Part shown: piece by piece, positions 19,070 to 30,881 of the stretch
Numbering within the stretch: position 1 is the stretch's first letter
Layout of the letters: each line of letters begins with the position of its first letter
Origin: an uncultured Eubacteriales bacterium
Lineage (GTDB): Bacteria > Bacillota > Clostridia > Lachnospirales > Lachnospiraceae
DNA length: 64,000 bases
Reading direction: 5' to 3'
Assembly (NCBI GenBank): GCA_900314565.1
Contig: OMVU01000004.1
Span: 18,404 to 82,403 of the forward strand
Translations under genes and position numbers: made by a program
The notes under the pieces: model-generated
Told to the model about the DNA's origin: nothing
What the model saw: the letters and a program-made list of their open reading frames with translations, nothing else
The model's database searches: none

Positions 19070-20071
19070 TTATGAGAGGTGCTCGGCGATCGTCATAAAG
19101 AGAAGCTCCATTGTGAGATCGAAATTGACGTTTGCGCGAAGCCTCGTCCTGGCTCTCTCGACCGCCTTCAGAATTTTGTCAAGTCCCTCATAGGAACTCT
19201 CCGCGGACTCCCTGCGGATCTCGACGAGTTCCCGCCGAAAGACCATGCTGTCCGCATCCTGTGTCGCCTTGTAGAGAAGAACATCCCTGAACCAGAGCTC
19301 GATCATATCGAGGTAACTGTAGATATCCTTTTTGTTCTCGGACATTTCCTTTACGATCTCGCCGATCTCATAGGTCTTCATTTCCCGAAGCTGCTTCATG
19401 AGCGCCACGACCCGGGCCGATATTTCCCGAAGAGCGGAGCCGGACGCCGCGTCCCTGGCCCTTCCGATATTGCCCTGGGCAAAAGCTCTGACGATCTCAG
19501 CTTCGTAATCAGGAAGCTGCATATCCGTCTGCAGATACTGAAGGACCTCTTCATCGCTCACAGCCCTGAGATTCAGGCGGACACAGCGGGACCGGATCGT
19601 CTCAAGGAGCGCATCAGGGTTCGATGAGAGCAGCATGATGACCGCGTAGACAGGCGGCTCCTCGATCGTCTTTAAGAGGGCGTTCTGGGCCTGCGGGTTC
19701 ATTTTTTCCGCCTCGTCGATGATATAGATCTTGTATTCGCTCTCATAGGGACGGATCCCGACGGTCGAGACGACCTGGCTTCGTATCTCGTCGACCGTGA
19801 TCACATCCGGTTTTTCATGATGAACATAGATGATGTCCGGATGGTTCATATTCACGGCTTTCCTGCAGGACTCACAGGCAAAGCATGGATTTTCGGAACT
19901 CTTCCTGCATTCGAGGAGCGTCGCAAAGAGCGATGAGATCAGCTTCTTCCCGGAGCCGGGCTCCCCCGAAAAGAGGTACGCATGCGAGACTCTTCCGTAG
20001 ACAGAAGCATTTTTTATATGTTGAATTACATCTTTATGGCCGACTACAGCCGCAAATCCTCTTTCATCCAT
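19070..20071 (-). CDS. holB: DNA polymerase III delta' subunit
   Basis: Clamp-loader subunit. AAA+ motifs: Walker A-like FSGEPGSGKK (~36), a four-Cys zinc module (CRKSSENPCFACESC, ~54-68), Walker B YIIDEAEKM (~120), sensor NALLKTIEEPP, and SRCVRLNL. 333 residues, normal size. Upstream RBS AAAGGAGG. Operon between gmk and ricT. Confidence 0.95.
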   Translation of the reverse strand: MDERGFAAVVGHKDVIQHIKNASVYGRVSHAYLFSGEPGSGKKLISSLFATLLECRKSSENPCFACESCRKAVNMNHPDIIYVHHEKPDVITVDEIRSQVVSTVGIRPYESEYKIYIIDEAEKMNPQAQNALLKTIEEPPVYAVIMLLSSNPDALLETIRSRCVRLNLRAVSDEEVLQYLQTDMQLPDYEAEIVRAFAQGNIGRARDAASGSALREISARVVALMKQLREMKTYEIGEIVKEMSENKKDIYSYLDMIELWFRDVLLYKATQDADSMVFRRELVEIRRESAESSYEGLDKILKAVERARTRLRANVNFDLTMELLFMTIAEHLS

Positions 20072-20086
20072 GCGATCCCTCCTTTC

Positions 20087-20722
20087 TTATACAGTACAGG
20101 ATCCGCTTCGCGAACCCTTTTTATCGAAAGCTGCTTTCGCATCTTCCGATAAAATAAATTTACAAATTTCAGCTATGCAGTCTGACAGTTCCCCGTTGTT
20201 GTCAAAGCGCCTGTCGATTCCGGCTTCGAGGATCTTCTCCTCCGAGAAATCCTCACTGTCCGTCAGAAAACGGCGGCACATCTCTTTATACTTCGGGACA
20301 TCCTGCTTTTTCTCTCGTTTCATCGCCCGCAGAAGGAGGTTCTCATCGCTCACCTCGATGTAAAGAGGCACAACGCGGTCCGTCCCGTAATAATCGCGAA
20401 GCTTCACAAAGGATTCCAGTGTCCCGATCGCAATATAACTGCCTTTTTGAAGGTCAATATCTTCGTCCACCGTCGCATAGGTCCAGGGTCCGTAGACTGT
20501 ATCGTACGTGCGCTCCTCGATGACGCGTCCTTCCCTGCGCAGCTCGAGAAGACGGCTCTCCTCCACAAAGTGGTAGGTCTCACCGTCGATCTCCCCCGCG
20601 CGCATGGGCCGGGTCGTGTACAGTATGAGCTCCGAGAGGTTCAGCACCGCGTCGCCTTTGAGGGCAGCGAAAATATGATCCTTTCCGGAGGCGGACTTTC
20701 CGATGATGTAAAAGATTTTCAT
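20087..20722 (-). CDS. Guanylate kinase-like protein
   Basis: A 211-residue P-loop kinase. Walker A IIGKSASGKDHIF, the LYTTRPMRAGEIDGETYHF substrate segment and ERTYDTVYGPWTY match guanylate kinase, including residues that bind GMP. The canonical GPSGSGK is changed to GKSASGKD. It occupies the place that tmk holds beside holB in Bacillus, so it may be a specialised paralogue rather than the sole essential Gmk. Confidence 0.85.
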   Translation of the reverse strand: MKIFYIIGKSASGKDHIFAALKGDAVLNLSELILYTTRPMRAGEIDGETYHFVEESRLLELRREGRVIEERTYDTVYGPWTYATVDEDIDLQKGSYIAIGTLESFVKLRDYYGTDRVVPLYIEVSDENLLLRAMKREKKQDVPKYKEMCRRFLTDSEDFSEEKILEAGIDRRFDNNGELSDCIAEICKFILSEDAKAAFDKKGSRSGSCTV

Positions 20723-20806
20723 GCAGATATTGCTTCCTTTTATCCCATAATTAATTTATTGTACCTTTTCTGAAAATGAAATTCAAGTCTTATGAGCGAA
20801 CCGTCA

Positions 20807-20835
20807 GATTCTCGGAGATTGAATCTCCGAGAATC
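20807..20835. repeat. Perfect 14 bp inverted repeat
   Basis: GATTCTCGGAGATT and its exact complement flank a single central G. It lies ~85 bp upstream of the guanylate kinase start. No T-run follows, so it is more likely an operator or repeat end than a terminator. Confidence 0.6.
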
Positions 20836-20860
20836 CTTGCTTAAATTTCTTGAACCGATC

Positions 20861-20935
20861 AGATCGCAGCCGGGCAAAGAGGACAGTGCTTCGCACGTAA
20901 GCGCGGCGCGTCAGGAACGCCGAGGAGTTCCTGAC
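20861..20935 (+). repeat. Dispersed repeat family 2, copy 2
   Basis: Shares GATCGCAGCCG, GTGCTTCGCACGTAAGCGCG and the ending hairpin AGGAACGC/GTTCCT with the copy at 15771. Confidence 0.75.
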
Positions 20936-20952
20936 AGCCTCTTCCGTCAAAC

Positions 20953-21058
20953 CTGCAGAACGTATGTCTGCTTTACGGTATCGGGCTCTTTTTACTTTGT
21001 TACGGAATCCAGCTTCCGGATCTCCTGCAAAACGAATGTCTGCTTTACAGAATCGTGC
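20953..21058 (+). repeat. Two direct copies of a ~34 bp sequence
   Basis: 20953-20986 and 21024-21058 share CTGCARAACG and ATGTCTGCTTTAC, ending ATCGKGCT. They sit in the gap between the family 2 repeat and the large inverted repeat. Confidence 0.6.
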
Positions 21059-21065
21059 TGATCCT

Positions 21066-21320
21066 GCAGCAGCTCAGATGACCCGTCACTTGCGTTTGCC
21101 GGCGGCAGCGGGGCTGCACTTCTGAAGAAAAACATTCGCAGTCCGACCGAGAAATCGAAAATGCTGCACTTTTTGTGACCAAAAGTATGCGAAGAGCGAC
21201 TTGCGGGAACAAAAAGTGCAGATGCATTTTTCGATTTCGCAGGGCAGGACAAGAGTTTTTCGAAGAAGATGCTGCCCTGCGCCGCCCCCTCATATGTGCC
21301 CGGGTCATCTGAATTGCTGC
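21066..21320. repeat. Large imperfect inverted repeat (~255 bp)
   Basis: The ends GCAGCAGCTCAGATGACCCG and CGGGTCATCTGAATTGCTGC are near complements. The arms remain complementary inward through GCGGCAGC/GCTGCC and GAAATCGAAAATGC / GCATTTTTCGATTTC to a short centre near 21195. No coding frame is convincing. It lies 3' of tex and could be a non-autonomous mobile element or a structured RNA. Confidence 0.7.
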
Positions 21321-21328
21321 CCCAGACC

Positions 21329-21366
21329 CCCTTCAGACCCCCTTCAGCCCCCTTCAGATCCCCTTC
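21329..21366 (-). repeat. Short tandem repeat at the 3' end of tex
   Basis: About four copies of a CTGAAGGGGG-like 10-11 bp unit start within the last codons of tex and run past its stop at 21354. Confidence 0.6.
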
Positions 21367-23516
21367 ATCGTCAGAGAGATCCTCTTTCTGCCCTCGTCCA
21401 CAGAAAGGACCTTCACCGTCACCACATCCCCGACACTCACCGCCTCGAGCGGATGCTTTATGTACCGGTCTGACATCTGGGAAATATGGACCAGCCCGTC
21501 CTGATGCACGCCGATATCCACGAACGCCCCGAAATCAATGACATTGCGGACGGTCCCCTTAAGGACCATGCCCGGCTTGAGATCCTTTATTTCCAGAATA
21601 TCGCTGCGAAGGACCGGCGCGTCGAGCTGCTCTCTGGGATCACGGCCCGGCTTCTCAAGCTCCTCAATGATATCGTGCAGGGTATACTCGCCGATCCCGA
21701 GATCCCGGGCAAGCTCCTTCTCATTGACGGAGGAGAGCTTCTTCCGAATCTCCCCGGTCCTGCCGTTCCTAATATCCTCTTCGCCAAAGCCGACCGTCGC
21801 AAGTAGCTTCTTCGCAGCCGCATAGCTCTCCGGATGGACGCCCGTCATATCGAGCGCGTCCGCCCCGCCGCGGATCCGCAGAAAGCCCGCACTCTGCTCA
21901 AAGGCCTTGGGACCGAGCTTCGGGACTTTCAGGAGCATGCGGCGGTTCCTGAACGGGCCATTGACTTCGCGGTATGCAACAATGTTCTTCGCAATCGTTT
22001 TATTGATGCCGGAAATGTAAGACAGGAGCGCGCCCGAAGCCGTATTCACATCGACGCCCACCCGGTTCACGCAGTCCTCAACGACACCGCCGAGGGCTTC
22101 GGACAGTCTTGTCTGATTCATATCGTGCTGGTACTGGCCCACGCCGATCGATTTCGGATCGATCTTGACGAGCTCCGCCAGCGGATCCTGCAGACGGCGG
22201 GCGATGGATGCCGCGCTTCTTACGCCGACGTCAAACTCGGGGAATTCCTCCGTTGCGAGCGCGCTCGCCGAGTAGACGGAAGCGCCGGCCTCATTGACGA
22301 TGACATATCTGAGCTCTCTGCCTTCCTCCGCCATCTCGCGGATGAAGTCCACAATTACAGCCTCGGACTCTCTGGAGGCCGTGCCGTTCCCGACCGATAT
22401 GACGTCCACATTCCAGCGCCTGACCAGTTCCTTAAGTTCCTCCTTCGCCCCCGCAATATCTTTTTGGGGCCCGTCCGTCGGGTAAATGACCGTCGCATCC
22501 AGCACTTTTCCGGTCGGATCGCAGACAGCCAGCTTGCAGCCCGTCCTGAAGGCCGGATCCCATCCGAGGACCGTCATGCCGGCGATCGGCGGCTGCATGA
22601 GGAGCTGGGTCAGATTCTTCCCGAAGACCGCGATGGCATCCTCCTGGGCTTTGCCGGTCAGTTCATTTCTCAGATCATTCTCGATCGACGGAGCGATGAG
22701 ACGCTTATATGCGTCGCGCGCAGCCTCCTCAATATACTTTCCTGTGGAAAGACGCTTTGCCGTGCCGAGCTTGAGCTTCAGATAGGTCTCGATCTCCTCG
22801 ACCGGGGCTGAAATCTTCACACCGATGATCTTTTCCTTCTCCGCGCGGTTGATCGCGAGCACGCGGTGGCCGGGGATCGTGCGAAGCGCTTCGCTGTAGT
22901 GGTAATAATTCTCGTAGACCGACTCCGCTTTCTCGTCCTTCGCCTCGCATACCAGGAGGCCGTCCGCGTAGGTCTTCCTTCGAATGAAAGACCGGTACTG
23001 CGCGTTATCGGAAATCTCCTCCGCGAGAATATCCTCCGCGAGATGCAGCGCATCTTTCGCGGTTTCGATTCCCTTCTCCGGATCGATATATTTCGAAGCC
23101 TCCGCTTCCGGATCACAGTTCGTAAAGGTATCGAGCAGGAATTTCGCGAGCGGCTCAAGCCCTTTCTCGCGGGCGATCATGCCCCTCGTTCTCTTCTTCT
23201 GCTTATAAGGCCTGTAGAGGTCCTCGAGCGCCACCAGCGTTTCCGCCGCGTCGATCTGCCGCCTCAGTTTCTCCGTCAGCTTTCCCTGCTCCTCGATGGC
23301 GGAGAGAATGGCTTCCCGTCTCGCATCCAGATTCCGGAGATAGGTCAGGCGCTCTTCAAGACGCCTGAGGATCTCGTCGTTCAGTGCGCCGTGCTTTTCC
23401 TTCCGGTAACGGGCAATGAAGGGAATCGTGTTCCCCTCGTCCAAAAGGCTGATGACAGCCTCCACCTGGTCTTCTCTGATGTCCAGTTCCTGTGCAATAA
23501 CTGCTGTAATATTCAT
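21354..23516 (-). CDS. tex: Tex-family RNA-binding transcription accessory protein
   Basis: A 720-residue Tex protein: N-terminal HTH-like region with VISLLDEGNTIPFIARYRKE, the YqgF/RuvX-like domain around GWDPAFRTGCKLAVCD, helix-hairpin-helix segment (SYISGINKTIAKNIVAYR), and a C-terminal S1 RNA-binding domain (LKPGMVLKGTVRNVIDFGAF). Tex binds nucleic acids and affects transcription; in several bacteria it influences toxin or surface gene expression. Start at 23516 has GGAGGG four bases upstream. The 3' end runs into a tandem CTGAAGGGGG array. Confidence 0.95.
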   Translation of the reverse strand: MNITAVIAQELDIREDQVEAVISLLDEGNTIPFIARYRKEKHGALNDEILRRLEERLTYLRNLDARREAILSAIEEQGKLTEKLRRQIDAAETLVALEDLYRPYKQKKRTRGMIAREKGLEPLAKFLLDTFTNCDPEAEASKYIDPEKGIETAKDALHLAEDILAEEISDNAQYRSFIRRKTYADGLLVCEAKDEKAESVYENYYHYSEALRTIPGHRVLAINRAEKEKIIGVKISAPVEEIETYLKLKLGTAKRLSTGKYIEEAARDAYKRLIAPSIENDLRNELTGKAQEDAIAVFGKNLTQLLMQPPIAGMTVLGWDPAFRTGCKLAVCDPTGKVLDATVIYPTDGPQKDIAGAKEELKELVRRWNVDVISVGNGTASRESEAVIVDFIREMAEEGRELRYVIVNEAGASVYSASALATEEFPEFDVGVRSAASIARRLQDPLAELVKIDPKSIGVGQYQHDMNQTRLSEALGGVVEDCVNRVGVDVNTASGALLSYISGINKTIAKNIVAYREVNGPFRNRRMLLKVPKLGPKAFEQSAGFLRIRGGADALDMTGVHPESYAAAKKLLATVGFGEEDIRNGRTGEIRKKLSSVNEKELARDLGIGEYTLHDIIEELEKPGRDPREQLDAPVLRSDILEIKDLKPGMVLKGTVRNVIDFGAFVDIGVHQDGLVHISQMSDRYIKHPLEAVSVGDVVTVKVLSVDEGRKRISLTMKGI

Positions 23517-23549
23517 AAAACCCTCCATGCAGCAGGCTGTGCGGCAGCT

Positions 23550-26525
23550 TCAATTTTCTTCCAGGATCCCTTTGAGCTCCTCACCCAGATTCGTCCCGAT
23601 CTTCTGTATCTTTCCGTTCTCCCCGGCGACGTACGTGGTCTTCATTTCCCTCTCCGCCTCCTTCACTTCCTCAAGGAAGTTCTGGGCGGACAGCCTGAGC
23701 GCGCCCGCGCCGTAAATGATGACCTGCTCGACCGCATCCGACGTCGCGACCGTGACGCGGTACTGGCGGCTCAGCTCATGGGCCGCCCGCTCAATATACA
23801 GATCGGCGGTCTCAGCCTCCCTCGTAAAGATGACGTCAATATTGTGGTGACGGTAGACCCACTCCTGCCCTCCGGCGACCTTGTAGGCGTCGAACACGCA
23901 GATGACGTTACGCTTCACATAGCCCGCATAGTTCGACAGGATCTCGAGAAGACGGTCCCGCGCGGCCTTCATGTCCCCGGAAGCCAGCTTCCGAAGCTCC
24001 TCCCAGGCGAAAATTATATTATATCCGTCCACGAGAAGATATTCCTTATCCGGCTGCTTTTTCTGCTTTCTGTATTTCGGTGCAGGTTCTGCGGTGACCT
24101 TTTTCGGCGACGCCTGCGCCATCAGGCTCCGGTCTTTGATCGGTCCGTATGTGCGCTCGAAGATGGCCATGAGCTCCCCTTCGGCAGCAAAACGATCCGC
24201 CTCCCGCTCCTTAAAGCTCCGCTCGTCCGGGCCTGTCTTTTTTGCGGCAGCGCGTCTTCCCTCCGCGCCCCGGTAACCGGCTTCCATCATATCGTCATCC
24301 GGGGTCCCCGGTCTGTCATCTGATTCCTCTTTCTCAAAAAATGAACTCCCGGCGCCCGCTCTCGACACCTGATTTTTCCCGCCGGCCGGGCCGGTAAATG
24401 CAGCCCCTTCGCGCCATCCGGTGTCGACATGCATATACTCGCGGACTTCGTACCAGGGGACGATGACGCCCGCTCCGTGCGAACAGAAGACAGAGGAGGC
24501 AGGATTTCTCTTGTCACTGTCCGGATCATAGCCGATCTCTTCGATCACCGCGTCCGGATCCTTACACGGACGGTATCCCCCCATCTCCGTCAGGAGGTGT
24601 CCCTGGCCTTTCGTGTAGGCGGAGAGCGTCTCCGCGTAGTCTCCGAATACGCTGACCGGCGCCTCGCCTGTCAGGATCGCGTTGTCACCGGAAAAATCAG
24701 GCTGTGAGAAGGAGGCTCCCATTTGCTGCAGGTCCGCGAGCGCCCGTCCGAGCGCCGTGCCCGGCAATTCCATTCGGAAGCTGTAAAATGGCTCGAGAAG
24801 AATATTTTCCGCCATCATGAGACCCTGCCGGACAGCCCGGTAGGTCGCCTGACGGAAGTCGCCTCCCTCTGTATGCTTTTCGTGAGCGCGTCCGCCGATC
24901 AGCGTGATCTTCATGTCCGTGATCTCGGATCCGGTGAGAACACCTCTGTGCTTTCTTTCCCGCAGATGCGTGAGGACCAGCCGCTGCCAGTTCTTCGCCA
25001 GCGTGTCCACCGTGCACATGCTCTCAAAGACAAGCCCGCTGCCCGGTTCACCCGGTTCGAGCAGAAGATGGACCTCCGCGTAGTGGCGGAGCGGCTCAAA
25101 GTGCCCGACGCCCTCCACCGGCCTCCTGATCGTCTCCTTGTAGATGATGGAAGGTCTCCCGTAATTGATCTCCAGACCGAACCGCTGCATGGCAAGGTTC
25201 TTCAGGATCTCTCTCTGGATCTCTCCCATGAGGCTGACCGTGATTTCCTTCTTCCGCTCGTTGTAGCGGACGGACAGCATGGGTTCCTCCTCCTCAAGGA
25301 TGCAGAGATCCCGGTAGGCCCGATAGGGATCTGTCCCCTGCGGAAGCAGGATCTGCCAGGTGAGGATCGGAACGACGAGACCTGCATTATCTGTCTGCGC
25401 AGCACCGAGGCCCTGCCCTGCATACGTGTCCGTCAGGCCGCAGACCGCGACGACGCTTCCCGCTTCCGCCTCCGGGAGTGCAGTGAATTTTTCTCCCGAG
25501 TACAGGCGTATCTGTGTAATTTTTTCATTTTTCTCGTTCGAATCCGTCTCCTCCGGGCTTTCATCGCTCCCGGAAATGAAATTCTCTCCGCGCCCCGAGT
25601 ACGACAGTACGTCGCGGACTTTGAGACTGCCGCCTGTGATCTTCATCCATGTAAGGCGCTCCCGCCCGTCGCGTGTGATCTTGAAGACGCGGGCTGAAAA
25701 CTCGTCGGAAAAATGAGCCGGGGCCGCGCATGCGTCAAGGCAGGCAAGCAGCCGGTCGACACCGTTCATGCGGAGCGCGGAGCCTGTGAGAACAGGGAAA
25801 AGCTTCCTCTCCGCGATCAGCTTTCTGATATCGCCCCAGGTGATTTCCCGGCCGTCCATGTAGGCGTCGAGGAGCTCCTCGTCGCAGAGCGCGATGGATT
25901 CCGCGGTGTCCGCGTCGATCGCGGGACCGTCCTCACTGCCTCCTGCCGCGGAGCTTTTTGCGTCGAACGCACTCCCGCCCTTCTCTGAAAATTCACCGGC
26001 ACTGCTGTCCGGGTACGGGATCCTGTCAAAATCAACTGCGTTTCCGCCGAGCTTTTCCTGGATCTCCGCAAAGACTTCCGCTCTGCGGCTCTCTCCCTCC
26101 CCGATCGCCTCCATCTGGTCCATCTTATTGACAAAAATGACCGTCGGGACGCCGTAGTGTTCAAGAAGGCTCCACAGCATGCGGACCTGGGCGTTTACGC
26201 CGTCCGCCGCGCTGATCACAAGGACAGCCAGGTCCAGGACCTGCAGTGTCCGTTCCATCTCCGGTGAAAAATCAGCGTGTCCCGGGGTGTCGAGCAGCGT
26301 ATACATGCGCTCGGTGCCGTCGGCAAGCGTCCGCTCGAACTGCGCCTGCTTGCTGAAGATCGTGATGCCGCGGGCGCGCTCCATCTCGTCCGTGTCCAGG
26401 AAGGCATCACGGTTGTCGACGCGGCCCATTTTCCGGATGCTTCCGCCGAGATAGAGAAGGCCTTCCGATAGTGTTGTCTTTCCGGCATCCACGTGCGCGC
26501 AGATCCCTATAATTAAATGATTCAT
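23550..26525 (-). CDS. TetM-like translational GTPase fused to a YacP/Rae1-type NYN nuclease
   Basis: Residues ~1-700 follow TetM/EF-G-like ribosomal protection proteins: G1 AHVDAGKTT (~10-18), an effector region with ARGITI, DTPGHADF, NKMD, EF-G domain IV/V signatures and the VIVPWYEVREYMH ending. A disordered charged linker follows (~715-825). Residues ~826-991 are an NYN/PIN-like domain with four acidic sites: LLVDGYNIIF, CVFDAYK, TADLYIERAA and VATSDAVEQ. This matches YacP, whose Bacillus member Rae1 cuts mRNA in the ribosomal A site. The fusion would link an A-site-binding GTPase to an RNase. Tetracycline resistance is not implied. Separated from tex by ~33 bp. Confidence 0.88.
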   Translation of the reverse strand: MNHLIIGICAHVDAGKTTLSEGLLYLGGSIRKMGRVDNRDAFLDTDEMERARGITIFSKQAQFERTLADGTERMYTLLDTPGHADFSPEMERTLQVLDLAVLVISAADGVNAQVRMLWSLLEHYGVPTVIFVNKMDQMEAIGEGESRRAEVFAEIQEKLGGNAVDFDRIPYPDSSAGEFSEKGGSAFDAKSSAAGGSEDGPAIDADTAESIALCDEELLDAYMDGREITWGDIRKLIAERKLFPVLTGSALRMNGVDRLLACLDACAAPAHFSDEFSARVFKITRDGRERLTWMKITGGSLKVRDVLSYSGRGENFISGSDESPEETDSNEKNEKITQIRLYSGEKFTALPEAEAGSVVAVCGLTDTYAGQGLGAAQTDNAGLVVPILTWQILLPQGTDPYRAYRDLCILEEEEPMLSVRYNERKKEITVSLMGEIQREILKNLAMQRFGLEINYGRPSIIYKETIRRPVEGVGHFEPLRHYAEVHLLLEPGEPGSGLVFESMCTVDTLAKNWQRLVLTHLRERKHRGVLTGSEITDMKITLIGGRAHEKHTEGGDFRQATYRAVRQGLMMAENILLEPFYSFRMELPGTALGRALADLQQMGASFSQPDFSGDNAILTGEAPVSVFGDYAETLSAYTKGQGHLLTEMGGYRPCKDPDAVIEEIGYDPDSDKRNPASSVFCSHGAGVIVPWYEVREYMHVDTGWREGAAFTGPAGGKNQVSRAGAGSSFFEKEESDDRPGTPDDDMMEAGYRGAEGRRAAAKKTGPDERSFKEREADRFAAEGELMAIFERTYGPIKDRSLMAQASPKKVTAEPAPKYRKQKKQPDKEYLLVDGYNIIFAWEELRKLASGDMKAARDRLLEILSNYAGYVKRNVICVFDAYKVAGGQEWVYRHHNIDVIFTREAETADLYIERAAHELSRQYRVTVATSDAVEQVIIYGAGALRLSAQNFLEEVKEAEREMKTTYVAGENGKIQKIGTNLGEELKGILEEN

Positions 26526-26697
26526 ATAAAATTTCCTTACTGACAGCTTCCCACATGCATGAACGCAGCAGCGACCGGGGTTCAGGACTCCGGATGTGGG
26601 AGGTTCCTATTACTGAATTCAAGAACGCCTCGGCGGACTTCCCCGCCTTGCATTATAATAATTCCTGGTGTCGTTCCTTGCAACCGATTATATCAGT

Positions 26698-26735
26698 GAG
26701 GCAATTCCCATGAAGCACAGACTGTCGCAATTGCA
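26698..26735 (-). repeat. Dispersed repeat family 1, half copy F
   Basis: Matches the left half in inverse orientation (CATGAAGCACAGACTGTCGC then AATTGC). The other half is missing; nearby 26621-26650 carries a fragment similar to the end of family 2 (AAGAACGCCTCGGCG). Confidence 0.6.
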
Positions 26736-26801
26736 TGAGTTTATTCAATAAGACGTTTGCGGAACTCCCGGCGAAATGGAATACTATGCATATTCAAACG
26801 G

Positions 26802-26839
26802 ACAAAAACAGGGCTGTCACAGTTCACTGCAACAGCCCC
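26802..26839 (-). terminator. Terminator of the maltose operon
   Basis: Stem GGGCTGT/ACAGCCC with a 14-base loop followed on the minus strand by a run of T, ~25 bp past the amylase stop. Confidence 0.8.
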
Positions 26840-26864
26840 GTCAAGGCAATACACCGACATCTTC

Positions 26865-28613
26865 TCAGTCTGCCGTACCGTCCAGTTTAAACACGGCAAT
26901 ACTGTAACCGGGCATCGTAAGCACACCCTGCTCATACGTGATGTTCTCCTCACCGGTATTCAGCACCGCGGCCGGCGTAACACCGGCGCCGTCCGCGCCA
27001 TTCACCGGAACGATTCCCGTCAGATCCTTCACCGCTGTCTCCGCGCGCAGATTCATCACGATCAGCAGATCGTCATACACCCCGCCGCCGGCTGTTCCGT
27101 TCTCCGGGCTTTTCCTCAGGAAAGCAGCCACGCTGTCATCACTGACGGAATCCACTCCCTCGGTCACGCCTCTGGCGATTGCCGGGAATGCATTTCTCAC
27201 GCGAATGACCTCCCTGAACCACGTCAGAAGCGACAGATCATCCTGCCTCTGCTCTGCTGCGGACGGGAACTTCATCGGCATTTCATCCATGTCCGGCGGG
27301 CCCGCACACATGTCCGGATCATCCGGATCATCGCTCCAGTACATCGGAGCGCGCTTGTTCTCATCTTTACCGGCCCCTTTCATACCGATCTCCTCACCGT
27401 AATAGACAAATGAGTTGCCGGTCATGAACAGGCTCATCGCATAGGCCATCTTCGTGACGGGGCCGTCATCGGCTCCATAATAGCCTGCGCTCCTGCCCAT
27501 ATCATGATTCGTATAGAACGGTGCGTCCACATAGGCCGGGTTCTTTCCGGCGTATGCCTCCTCGGCCAGCAGCATTCCTTTCACGTAATCCGAAGCCTTA
27601 TAAGTGCCGTTTATGATGTTTGCAATGAACCCGTCATTTCCGCTGAACGGAAAGTCGAACAGTGAATCGATCCCACTCCCGTAGAGCTCGGCAATCGTAT
27701 TCCGATCCGTCCACGCTTCTCCGACAAAATAGCAGTCGGCACTGATTTCCCTGCCTGCCTCCGTGAGGAACCGCAGGAACTCTATGTTGGCCTCCGTATT
27801 TCCCTCAAAATAATGCGTCACTGCATCCAGCCGGAACCCGGCAGCGCCTTTCCCCAGCCAGAAAGCCAGAATATTCCGGATTTCCCCTCTCACAGCCTCG
27901 CTCGAAAGGTTGAGGTCCGGCATTTCAGACCAGAATCTTGCCTCGTAGTACCATTCGGTGCCCTCAAGAGGCGCATAGCCGTCGGCAGGCTGTCTGGAAA
28001 AATTATAGTAGTTAAAATACGGACACGCAGACGGATCCGGCTCCGCCCCGGAGGGCAGTTTGCGCAGATAATCCGACGCGGCCAAAAACCATGCATTTTC
28101 ATCCGAAGTATGATTGAGCACGAGATCCATATACACGCGGATCCCCCGCTCACTGCACGCTTTCAGCAAGGCTTCACAGTCCTCCATTGTTCCGAACGCC
28201 GGATCGATCGCGTAATAGTCATCCACATCATACTTGTGATAGGTCGACGACGGATGCACGGGCGTCAGCCAGATCGCGTCAAAACCCAGATCTTCTATAT
28301 AATCCAATTTGGACCGGATGCCGTTCAGGTCTCCGATCCCGTCCCCGTTCGAGTCGCAGAACGAATACACAAAGATCTCATAGGTCGTACGATAGTTGTC
28401 ATCTGTCTGCGTCCGCACAAGGTCTTTGTTATAGTCCAGCATCTGGACATGAGAAGCAGCGGGCTTACTGCCGCCCGCTGCATTACTCCCGTCAGAAGAG
28501 ACAGCCGGTCTGTCCTCGCCCGTTGCCTGCTCTTTCTTCTGACTTTGGCTGCATCCTGTGATACACAGCATCGCGCACAGGATCATGCATATGATTTTCT
28601 GTATTCTTCTCAT
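26865..28613 (-). CDS. GH13 alpha-amylase-family lipoprotein
   Basis: Extracellular, membrane-tethered glycoside hydrolase (~582 residues) for starch or maltodextrin. A type II signal peptide ends in the lipobox ITGC (~18-21). GH13 conserved regions are visible: DLVLNHTS, GFRLDAVTHY (nucleophile Asp), FVGEAW (acid/base Glu) and FYTNHDMGR (third Asp). Start at 28613 has GGAGAG upstream and gives a proper signal peptide; a longer frame to 28694 overlaps malG and is less likely. Last gene of the lacI-malEFG operon, so it probably supplies oligosaccharides to the transporter. Confidence 0.93.
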   Translation of the reverse strand: MRRIQKIICMILCAMLCITGCSQSQKKEQATGEDRPAVSSDGSNAAGGSKPAASHVQMLDYNKDLVRTQTDDNYRTTYEIFVYSFCDSNGDGIGDLNGIRSKLDYIEDLGFDAIWLTPVHPSSTYHKYDVDDYYAIDPAFGTMEDCEALLKACSERGIRVYMDLVLNHTSDENAWFLAASDYLRKLPSGAEPDPSACPYFNYYNFSRQPADGYAPLEGTEWYYEARFWSEMPDLNLSSEAVRGEIRNILAFWLGKGAAGFRLDAVTHYFEGNTEANIEFLRFLTEAGREISADCYFVGEAWTDRNTIAELYGSGIDSLFDFPFSGNDGFIANIINGTYKASDYVKGMLLAEEAYAGKNPAYVDAPFYTNHDMGRSAGYYGADDGPVTKMAYAMSLFMTGNSFVYYGEEIGMKGAGKDENKRAPMYWSDDPDDPDMCAGPPDMDEMPMKFPSAAEQRQDDLSLLTWFREVIRVRNAFPAIARGVTEGVDSVSDDSVAAFLRKSPENGTAGGGVYDDLLIVMNLRAETAVKDLTGIVPVNGADGAGVTPAAVLNTGEENITYEQGVLTMPGYSIAVFKLDGTAD

Positions 28614-28659
28614 CCCGATATCTCTCCGATATGCGCAGAATAAGGTACTGCTCTTACGC

Positions 28660-29535
28660 TTATCCCTTGACCGCTCCCGACATGCCCTCGACATAGAACC
28701 TCTGCAGATAGAGGAACAGTATGGCGATCGGCACGGAAATCAGCACCGCGCCTGCGGCGAAGCAGGTGTACCACTGATAGATGTATTCCTTCTGCAGCAT
28801 GTTCCACAGACCGATGGCGACCGTGAACTGGTCGGAATTCGCCCTGCACAGAACCTTTGCAAAGATGAAATCTACCCAGGGCGCAATGAACGAGGTCATG
28901 ATGGTGTAGATGATGATCGGTTTGGACAGCGGCATTGTGATCTTGGTAAAGATCTGCCACCGTGTAGCCCCGTCGATGACTGCCGCCTCGTCGATGGCTT
29001 TGGGGATCGTGTCGAAAAAGCCCTTCGATATCTGGAATCCCAGACCGGTACACGCGCTGTAGACGATGATCAGTCCGAACCGGATGGAGGCTCCCTCCGT
29101 AAGGCCCATCGCCTTTAAAATGAAATACTGCGCGATCATTGTCATGAAGCCCGGGAACAGTCCCAGGATCATCGCCATATTCATGTACGGCTTACGCATT
29201 TTGAACCGCATTCGGCTGAGGGAATATGACACGGACAGCACAAAGGATGTGCTGATACAGCAGCTGCAGATTGCAATGATCAGTGTATTTTTGAACATTC
29301 TCGGGAAGTTCAGAACATTCTTGTCCGTCAGGAGCTTCACGTAATTTTGGATAGTGTAGCTTTTCGGCAGGAACGTGTTGGTGTATGCACCCGGCTCTGC
29401 CCGGAAACTGGTAAGGACGATCCACACAATGGGCATGACCCAGATCAGTGCCAGCACAGCCAGTAAAACATGTACGAGAAAGTTTATGATCCTCTTTCTG
29501 GGACTCCGACTGTTTTCCTGATGTTTCTTTTCCAT
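28660..29535 (-). CDS. malG: Maltose/maltodextrin ABC transporter permease, MalG type
   Basis: A 291-residue inner-membrane protein with six predicted transmembrane segments and the EAA loop (EAAVIDGATRWQIFTKITMPLSKP). MalG partner of the MalF-type protein just upstream; the malF stop overlaps its start by one base. No dedicated ATPase is present in the operon, so a shared MsmK/MalK-like ATPase elsewhere is inferred. Confidence 0.92.
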   Translation of the reverse strand: MEKKHQENSRSPRKRIINFLVHVLLAVLALIWVMPIVWIVLTSFRAEPGAYTNTFLPKSYTIQNYVKLLTDKNVLNFPRMFKNTLIIAICSCCISTSFVLSVSYSLSRMRFKMRKPYMNMAMILGLFPGFMTMIAQYFILKAMGLTEGASIRFGLIIVYSACTGLGFQISKGFFDTIPKAIDEAAVIDGATRWQIFTKITMPLSKPIIIYTIMTSFIAPWVDFIFAKVLCRANSDQFTVAIGLWNMLQKEYIYQWYTCFAAGAVLISVPIAILFLYLQRFYVEGMSGAVKG

Positions 29536-30881
29536 TACATGAACGCCTCCTCGTTTTTATAGGAACTGGAATTCCTGTATGTAGTCAGTGTGATGACAGT
29601 CAGTATGACGAAGGTCATAATACCGATCACAGCGCCGAGGTTATAATACTGCTGATCAATCGTCAACTTGTAGAGCCAGGTCACGAGCAGGTCGGTCTGA
29701 CCTGCGGTATCGCCGACATACGTAGGACCACCGCCCGACAGAAGATAGATGACATTGAAGTTATTGATATTGCCTACGAAGCTGGCAATCAGATACGGCA
29801 TCGTAACAAAAAGCATGTAAGGAAGCGTTATCTTGAAGAATATTGTCGCCGGACCTGCGCCGTCCATTTTGGCGGCTTCATAAAGGTCTTCGGGGATATT
29901 CTGCAGAATACCGGTCACCTGCAGTATCGTATACGGAATACCGACCCACAGGTTGATCACGATGATCGTGACCCTGGCAAGCATGGCATTGGTCCAGAAC
30001 GGAATCGATTCTTTTATGAGCCCCAGATTCTTGAGGAGTACATTAACGGCACCCGACGGCTGCAGCATGATGTTCATGATCATCAGCGAAACGAACTGGG
30101 GAACAGCGATGGAGAGCACAAAACAGAATCTCCAGAACGATTTCCATTTCGTTTCCTTCCTGTTGATGATCATGGCCAGAATCATACCGAGAATATAATT
30201 CAGGAATGTCGCAAAAACCGCCCATATGATCGTCCAGGCGAGTACGTGCCAGAACTGGCGGCCGATATTGCCGTTCATATTGAGCACTCTCTGGAACTGA
30301 TGCAGGCCGTCCCAGTCGAACAGGACCAGATGCTCATCTTCCTTGGAATACGTCGTGAACGCCATCGTGATCATGTAGACCAGCGGTACGATATTGAAAA
30401 TTAAAATACCGATGCAGGGAAGTGCCATCAGCGTAATATGAAGGTTGCCGTCGAACAGGTTCTTCACATCCTTGCCAAGGCTCGGTACCGTCTCTCCTTT
30501 TTCGATCATCTTCTGGAGCTTGTAGGAATGCTGAAGCTGCAGGATCCAGAGGGCAATGAACCCTGCAATCACAAAACATGTGACCACACCGGCGAGAAGG
30601 ATCTGCTGCGAATTGTCGCCGGTCGAATACTCATAGATCTGCTTGGCTTCGTTCCAGACCTTGCCCTGCGCTTCCGTACCAAGGCTCAACATCATGCTCA
30701 GATTATGAAAGCCTGTTGTGACCATAAACCCCAGGAATGCGATTTCCATGAGTAAGACGACAGCGCCTTTTATGATCTGCCGATGTCCTGCAATTCCCAC
30801 TCCCATAAGAACAGCAGAAAGTTTTGTAAAAAGATCACCCTTTAGCAATGCATTTTTTACGGTAATGCGATCTTCGTTCAT
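29535..30881 (-). CDS. malF: Maltose/maltodextrin ABC transporter permease, MalF type
   Basis: A 448-residue permease with extra N-terminal transmembrane segments and a soluble insertion like other MalF proteins, plus an EAA loop (EAAKMDGAGPATIFFKITLPY). Forms the channel with MalG. Start follows GAGGTAATC. Separated from malE by a ~190 bp gap containing a strong hairpin. Confidence 0.92.
   Translation of the reverse strand: MNEDRITVKNALLKGDLFTKLSAVLMGVGIAGHRQIIKGAVVLLMEIAFLGFMVTTGFHNLSMMLSLGTEAQGKVWNEAKQIYEYSTGDNSQQILLAGVVTCFVIAGFIALWILQLQHSYKLQKMIEKGETVPSLGKDVKNLFDGNLHITLMALPCIGILIFNIVPLVYMITMAFTTYSKEDEHLVLFDWDGLHQFQRVLNMNGNIGRQFWHVLAWTIIWAVFATFLNYILGMILAMIINRKETKWKSFWRFCFVLSIAVPQFVSLMIMNIMLQPSGAVNVLLKNLGLIKESIPFWTNAMLARVTIIVINLWVGIPYTILQVTGILQNIPEDLYEAAKMDGAGPATIFFKITLPYMLFVTMPYLIASFVGNINNFNVIYLLSGGGPTYVGDTAGQTDLLVTWLYKLTIDQQYYNLGAVIGIMTFVILTVITLTTYRNSSSYKNEEAFM

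Follow-up and report, generated by a model that had tools for sequence, protein, structure and literature searches.

The window analysed here, a 64,000-nucleotide stretch of contig OMVU01000004.1 from an uncultured Lachnospiraceae bacterium (source genome 4.2 Mb in 191 contigs), encodes a translational GTPase of the EF-G/Tet type whose C-terminal tail is a YacP/Rae1-type NYN nuclease domain. The literature describes Rae1 as an endoribonuclease of the ribosomal A site (PMC6613710, PMC12320835). As judged from their predicted proteins, many Clostridia, gut ones above all, carry a Rae1-type enzyme in this form, as the tail of a ribosome-type GTPase, and the fusion seems to have replaced the free Rae1, which is new here. 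Our best reading, based on homology and on this replacement, is that the fusion acts as a GTPase-guided Rae1, the only Rae1 of the cell, on paused ribosomes; we regard this as somewhat probable.

Architecture of the fusion protein

The gene is a single unbroken open reading frame that starts with ATG, with AAGGAAA a few bases 5' of the start. A Pfam search of the 991 residues confirmed the N-terminal GTPase, the C-terminal NYN domain and the coordinates given in a preliminary description, which had been made from the DNA sequence alone:

23550..26525, minus strand: whole fusion gene, 991 codons plus stop
25725..26522, minus strand: G domain of the translational GTPase, residues 2-267 (Pfam GTP_EFTU, E 7e-51; motifs AHVDAGKTT, DTPGH and NKMD intact)
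25416..25703, minus strand: domain II, residues 275-370 (Pfam 22.4 bits, under the cut-off of 27)
25158..25301, minus strand: domain III, residues 409-456, partial match (Pfam 22.2 bits, under the cut-off of 27)
24810..25154, minus strand: domain IV, residues 458-572 (Pfam EFG_IV, E 2e-20)
24852..24884, minus strand: loop III of domain IV, H548-R558, HEKHTEGGDFR, which replaces YYSPVSTPADFR of TetM/TetO (from alignment)
24558..24800, minus strand: domain V, residues 576-656 (Pfam EFG_C, E 2e-13)
24429..24578, minus strand: conserved Cys/His tail, residues 650-699 (C654, C681, H683, H699; SVFCSHGAG..W..V..YMH)
24039..24428, minus strand: charged linker, residues 700-829, with a conserved short motif ELxxIFxRTYG at 784-794
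23562..24038, minus strand: NYN_YacP (Rae1-type) nuclease domain, residues 830-988, with D833, D879, D908 and D930 (Pfam E 3e-48)

Domains II and III are recognisable, though only below the Pfam thresholds, and with its G motifs and EF-G/Tet domain order the N-terminal part has the traits of the translational GTPase superfamily. Its best solved-structure matches are TetO, TetM and EF-G, while the score of 250.4 bits against the EF-G model TIGR00484 lies far below the cut-off of 659.4. The GTPase motifs, including the histidine of DTPGH, are invariant in 64 aligned fusions, and hence the protein is likely a switching GTPase.

The NYN domain scores 164.2 bits against a Pfam cut-off of 24.6 and matches the B. 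subtilis YacP structures 5mq8 and 5mq9 at E ~1e-27. An unrelated NYN region, one of two ways in which the preliminary description could have failed, is thus not what was found, and the four acidic residues that it had listed are intact. They are invariant in all 80 fused and all 26 other NYN domains aligned, although three of these 26 (L023, L063 and L119) are themselves pieces of broken fusions. The domain and its acids are common to the fusion and B. subtilis Rae1/YacP; the latter is a free protein (solved chains of 181 residues), whereas here it forms the C-terminal domain of a GTPase. The second way to fail, misassembly of two frames, is excluded in practice, because fusion-length frames recur in more than 200 sampled genomes, some of them single-contig assemblies (G035, G046, G085 and G191 included).

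The linker is charged as described before, with 38% charged residues, and residues 700-829 match no Pfam family at E 1e-6. The tail motif could be located in 74 of 80 fusions; in these the linker is 69-143 residues long (130 in the window copy), and a motif resembling ELxxIFxRTYG is conserved in 56 of the 74.

Spread of the fusion

The survey of clostridia proposed in the preliminary description found the same architecture to be widespread. We searched 200 genomes from 200 genera of the family Lachnospiraceae, 291 genomes of the class Clostridia and 299 of the phylum Bacillota, with related genomes taken as separate in all counts. In the family sample NYN_YacP was present in 180 and the fusion-type GTPase (E <= 1e-170) in 170 genomes. 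All 170 also have YacP, and the GTPase is found in none of the 20 genomes without it. Among the matches listed, 148 of 150 GTPases lie in open frames long enough for the fusion (at least 800 residues). The GTPase is unfused in at least six of the 170 genomes (G024, G029, G054, G059, G099 and G161), and an unfused copy occurs in six of the ten free-YacP genomes tested in the family. Two further genomes are split or broken: in G042 the GTPase and the NYN domain occupy two overlapping frames at one locus (L063 5513-8198), either by an indel or by a gene split, and in G095 the two halves sit at two contig ends. The closer examination of this sample left out the YacP of G069 and G128, and G178. The latter has a 931-residue frame with a weak, partial match to the GTPase model (C1:1210670-1211794, 256 bits) and a YacP that is divergent too, and this frame is possibly a fast-evolving fusion.

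In the class sample, 189 genomes have YacP, 122 the GTPase and 115 both; the GTPase frame spans at least 780 residues in 100 of these 115, and five more look like fusions broken at contig ends (G250, G337, G378, G412 and G421). In the phylum sample the GTPase reaches the family-level score (at least 748 bits) in 20 of 299 genomes, 18 times in a frame of at least 857 residues and 12 of these times outside the class. Among the matches listed for named genomes, 594 of 596 pattern matches encode relatives; 80 loci were kept, and all 66 GTPase frames read by motif also contain the nuclease motif. The record titles include Butyrivibrio, Oscillibacter, Intestinimonas, Mediterraneibacter and Flavonifractor.

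Replacement of free Rae1

In most free-YacP relatives tested the yacP gene lies beside the 23S methylase gene rlmB, whereas the fusion gene is located away from it. A yacP gene beside rlmB was seen in 15 of 20 free-YacP genomes, directly after rlmB in 4/6 of the family and 11/14 from elsewhere in the class, compared with none of 22 fusion genomes (0/6 in the family and 0/16 others, within 1.5 kb). Five free-YacP genomes are misses, and one of the three in the class, G308, is uninformative, as its rlmB lies near a contig end. The window copy, too, lacks this usual trait of Rae1/YacP of being a free protein beside rlmB.

In the free-YacP genomes G054 and G099 the gene after yacP encodes a sigma factor (the former passes a SigH cut-off, the latter was judged by eye), and in 5 of 6 family fusion genomes a sigma-factor gene stands immediately after rlmB. 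Three of these (G028, G102 and G191) pass a SigH cut-off and that of G127 has sigma-70 Pfam domains; in the genome of the window the gap to rlmB is 27 bases and the gene scores 152.8, where the SigH cut-off is 208. This genome has no NYN_YacP match besides the fusion, and exactly one YacP match was obtained in 175 of 180 family genomes, with two in G039, G076, G130, G154 and G173 and in 4 of the 189 YacP-bearing class genomes. Since the yacP slot beside rlmB is empty in fusion genomes, the fusion seems to carry the ancestral function rather than to be an added paralogue.

The fused nucleases, as predicted from their sequences, differ from the others at one end: they keep the four acids (80/80) but often not the C-terminal helix, an observation new here. 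A C-terminal [MLFI]ExxR is found in 32 of 80 fused domains versus 22 of 26 others, the three pieces of broken fusions counted among the latter. Because fewer fused than free domains keep it, some of the ribosome docking may have passed to the GTPase, and a partial transfer of recruitment fits as the simplest account of the loss.

Origin of the fusion

Phylogenetic trees suggest that the fusion arose once, as it seems from the grouping of the fused copies. In a quick 73-row GTPase tree, 33 fused proteins fall into one clade of 37 rows with support 100, the other four being the split G042, the contig-broken G095 and two copies on viral contigs. This clade adjoins one of 21 unfused homologues (support 98) and a lone unfused row, all apart from the Tet-type and EF-G rows. 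A FastTree of 101 rows with other families, which carries a long-branch warning on three Tet-type rows, unites all 67 rows labelled fused with five labelled unfused (support 99). The five are L063 (G042), L276 (G095), L149, L293 and L236; of these, L149 (884 residues) and L293 (863 residues) are fusion frames mislabelled by motif, and L236 is a real unfused copy. The NYN tree gives broadly the same picture: the fused domains group with the free YacP of the family (support 100), separately from the remaining free YacP, and its inner branches are weakly supported.

The unfused members of about 650 residues have the same loop type and tail as the fusion but neither linker nor nuclease, and are annotated as "translation factor GTPase family protein" or as Tet. 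Members of their clade come from further clostridial families and from a Paenibacillus record (L300). A Ligilactobacillus salivarius protein (L299), similar to them in loop and tail, lies outside the row set of the tree.

These trees bear on the idea that the fusion merely co-localises two housekeeping activities, for shared expression or stability, with no mechanical coupling. The long linker and the separate, unassociated occurrence of the two halves outside fusions would suit it, while a single fused clade with few losses and the conserved linker motif speak against it, and we consider it improbable.

A GTPase subfamily separate from Tet proteins

Fusions of this architecture are not new, as Tet proteins with a YacP-like NYN domain were reported from ten Clostridiales species, in the two sentences that the source gives to them together with a possible RNase-based resistance (Atkinson 2015, PMC4342817). 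These are very probably the same family. That study places them inside the Tet subfamily; here they form a separate subfamily, near-universal in a large family and standing in place of free Rae1. Beyond it, the literature searched gave nothing on function, spread, subfamily or Rae1 replacement of the fusion, with many journals lying outside the coverage.

According to that suggestion, the fusion would protect ribosomes from tetracycline and would have acquired the RNase as a new means of resistance. TetO and TetM are indeed its closest solved relatives, with the same GTPase domain order, and the fusion of Agathobacter rectalis carries the PGAP name TetM/TetW/TetO/TetS family protein. However, the fusion reaches 396.8 bits with the NCBIfam model tet_protect, about half of the cut-off of 775, while a Tet(M)-type gene of this class, taken as a control, passes with 880.5 bits, and passes the Tet(M) model too. 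In 19 of the 291 class genomes, 22 matches pass tet_protect, all in frames of 643-666 residues and none in a frame of fusion length. Six of these 19 (G225, G234, G247, G350, G429 and G478) also carry a fusion-type gene, with fusion frames of 841-909 residues. The presence of the gene in 170 of 200 family genomes likewise argues against a resistance gene.

Loop III of domain IV and the tail were classified over 215 GTPase frames, 157 fused and 58 unfused. The loop KHTxGGDF is found in 151 fused and 26 unfused frames. The Tet loop YSPVS occurs in five and the EF-G loop YHxVDSSE in 17 unfused frames, and neither in any of the 157 fused ones. The Cys/His tail, which stands in place of the Tet C-terminal helix, accompanies the KHT loop (151/157 fused, 28/58 unfused) and is absent from all YSPVS and EF-G frames. 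Published work implicates loop III in the displacement of tetracycline, treats both this loop and the C-terminal extension as important for Tet(M) function, and describes a loss of resistance on loop substitution in Tet(O) (PMC4750697, PMC8807479). The HEKHTEGGDFR loop of the window copy, which lacks YSPVS, thus argues against resistance without being decisive: Tet(M) with a triple mutation in loop III reportedly remains active, and alterations that preserve the shape of the loop are tolerated (PMC4750697), and one protein, L330, passes tet_protect yet lacks YSPVS. Taken together, resistance appears very unlikely. The preliminary description had called the GTPase TetM-like and doubted a role in resistance. 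The latter view is supported by the sequences; of the former, the EF-G/Tet type stands, but the GTPase is a distinct subfamily, set apart from Tet(M)-type proteins by tree, loop III and tail and newly recognised here from these comparisons, and not TetM itself.

A zinc site in the Cys/His tail is suggestive but not claimed, because H683 is not constant: L036 has Asn there, and many unfused copies have Lys. Another group of Tet-like GTPases (L261, L262, L264 and L266) has neither YSPVS nor the Cys/His tail, with loops such as HTHPLDF; L261 scores 453 bits against the tet_protect cut-off of 775.

Possible mode of action

Tet(O) is described as binding at the site of EF-G, and Rae1 as acting in the A site. 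Given how the EF-G/Tet site and the A site are occupied by such domains, both should not fit together, and they would therefore probably use the A site in turn, with the GTPase loosened first. The Tet-like GTPase would dock at the factor site of a ribosome with a vacant or stuck A site, where domain IV and the Cys/His tail may reach the decoding centre. The linker-tethered NYN domain would then enter the A site, probably once GTP hydrolysis loosens the GTPase, and cut the mRNA, by which the ribosome would be rescued or the message retired. Ribosome binding, A-site cutting, the order of events and GTP dependence we infer from knowledge of the two families. A bolder version, which we offer tentatively, is a GTP-gated mRNA nuclease, in which the GTPase inspects the A site and hydrolysis hands the site to the tethered Rae1, so that a translation-factor cycle would license the cutting of mRNA. 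For much of the Clostridia this might be the standard form of A-site cleavage, concealed by annotation as tetracycline resistance.

Several observations weigh against a GTPase-guided Rae1. In the class sample 74 of 291 genomes have YacP without the GTPase and seven the GTPase without YacP (not counting G434, with a GTPase in two pieces and no YacP), while 95 have neither. Outside fusions the separate genes are not associated class-wide (10/74/7/95; p 0.31 with the five contig-broken fusions removed, p 0.04 in a first count that included them), hence the GTPase has uses without Rae1 and vice versa. A copy nested in the fused clade occurs on viral contigs without NYN. No recurring partner or rescue factor was found beside the fusion among up to four neighbours on each side at 100 loci. 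Finally, the C-terminal ExxR is missing from the window copy. In B. subtilis Rae1 the substitution R166P, close to that motif at the corresponding end of the protein, seems to abolish activity; it is described as a suppressor and read as loss of function (PMC6613710). For the viral-contig copy L236, the tree position makes a secondary loss of the NYN part likely. Both viral-contig copies (L236 1-2181 and L237 1-2181) lie at the very edge of their contigs, and the next genes, on the opposite strand, are phage-like by eye.

The order of events could also be reversed, with the NYN domain cutting first and the GTPase then translocating, splitting or recycling the ribosome like EF-G-type factors. 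The EF-G/Tet domain order and the retained DTPGH histidine would allow for this, and the existence of unfused homologues without YacP indicates that the GTPase has a job of its own. On the other hand, the alignment of loop III favours Tet over EF-G sequence, with DFR kept, and the many class genomes with YacP and no such GTPase do not fit well, which makes a cut-first order rather unlikely.

A last alternative is that the NYN domain processes stable RNA (ribosomal or transfer RNA) in ribosome biogenesis and is recruited to the subunits by the GTPase. This would follow an earlier prediction for the NYN domain, quoted in Atkinson 2015 (PMC4342817), and agree with the usual position of free yacP next to rlmB; in the genome of the window an RNase III-domain gene lies upstream of rlmB. 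As B. subtilis Rae1 is described as acting on mRNA in the A site, we think stable RNA a very improbable substrate.

If the fusion is indeed a GTPase-guided Rae1, a major branch of Clostridia would couple the surveillance of ribosomes to the cutting of mRNA within a single protein driven by GTP. How Rae1 finds ribosomes would become directly testable, because the candidate targeting module is physically attached.

Gene neighbourhood

The immediate downstream neighbour of the fusion gene is:

21354..23528, minus strand (same strand as the fusion): tex (S1/YqgF), 21 bases past the fusion gene

The tex gene is probably no partner, as it is local to the window and is no regular neighbour of fusions elsewhere. 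Genes of the alpha-amylase and binding-protein-type transporter kinds (26865-30881) lie upstream in the same orientation, the nearest of them 339 bases before the fusion gene; they do not recur at other fusions either. The largest neighbour cluster comprises 24 genes from 20 loci at scattered positions, and the unfused copies have no recurring neighbour. A role in anti-phage defence was considered and dropped, with no PADLOC match. Likewise, no Rfam match was obtained in window positions 20000-30000, and promoter and terminator scans near the fusion gene gave nothing above chance.

Annotation in public records

In at least one Agathobacter rectalis record this near-universal gene, which is probably not a resistance gene, bears a tetracycline-resistance label; there a plasmid encodes a 933-residue fusion (L298 2980-5781) annotated as tetracycline resistance protein. 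The same holds for the unfused relative on L. salivarius plasmids. Resistome counts could therefore be inflated. A Monoglobus homologue of 862 residues (L297) is annotated as translation factor GTPase family protein. The L. salivarius relative (UCC118 plasmid pMP118, L299 2402-4920), annotated as TetM/TetW/TetO/TetS resistance, adjoins rpsN and a putative metal homeostasis gene on the plasmid, and a link to zinc-limited ribosomes is conceivable.

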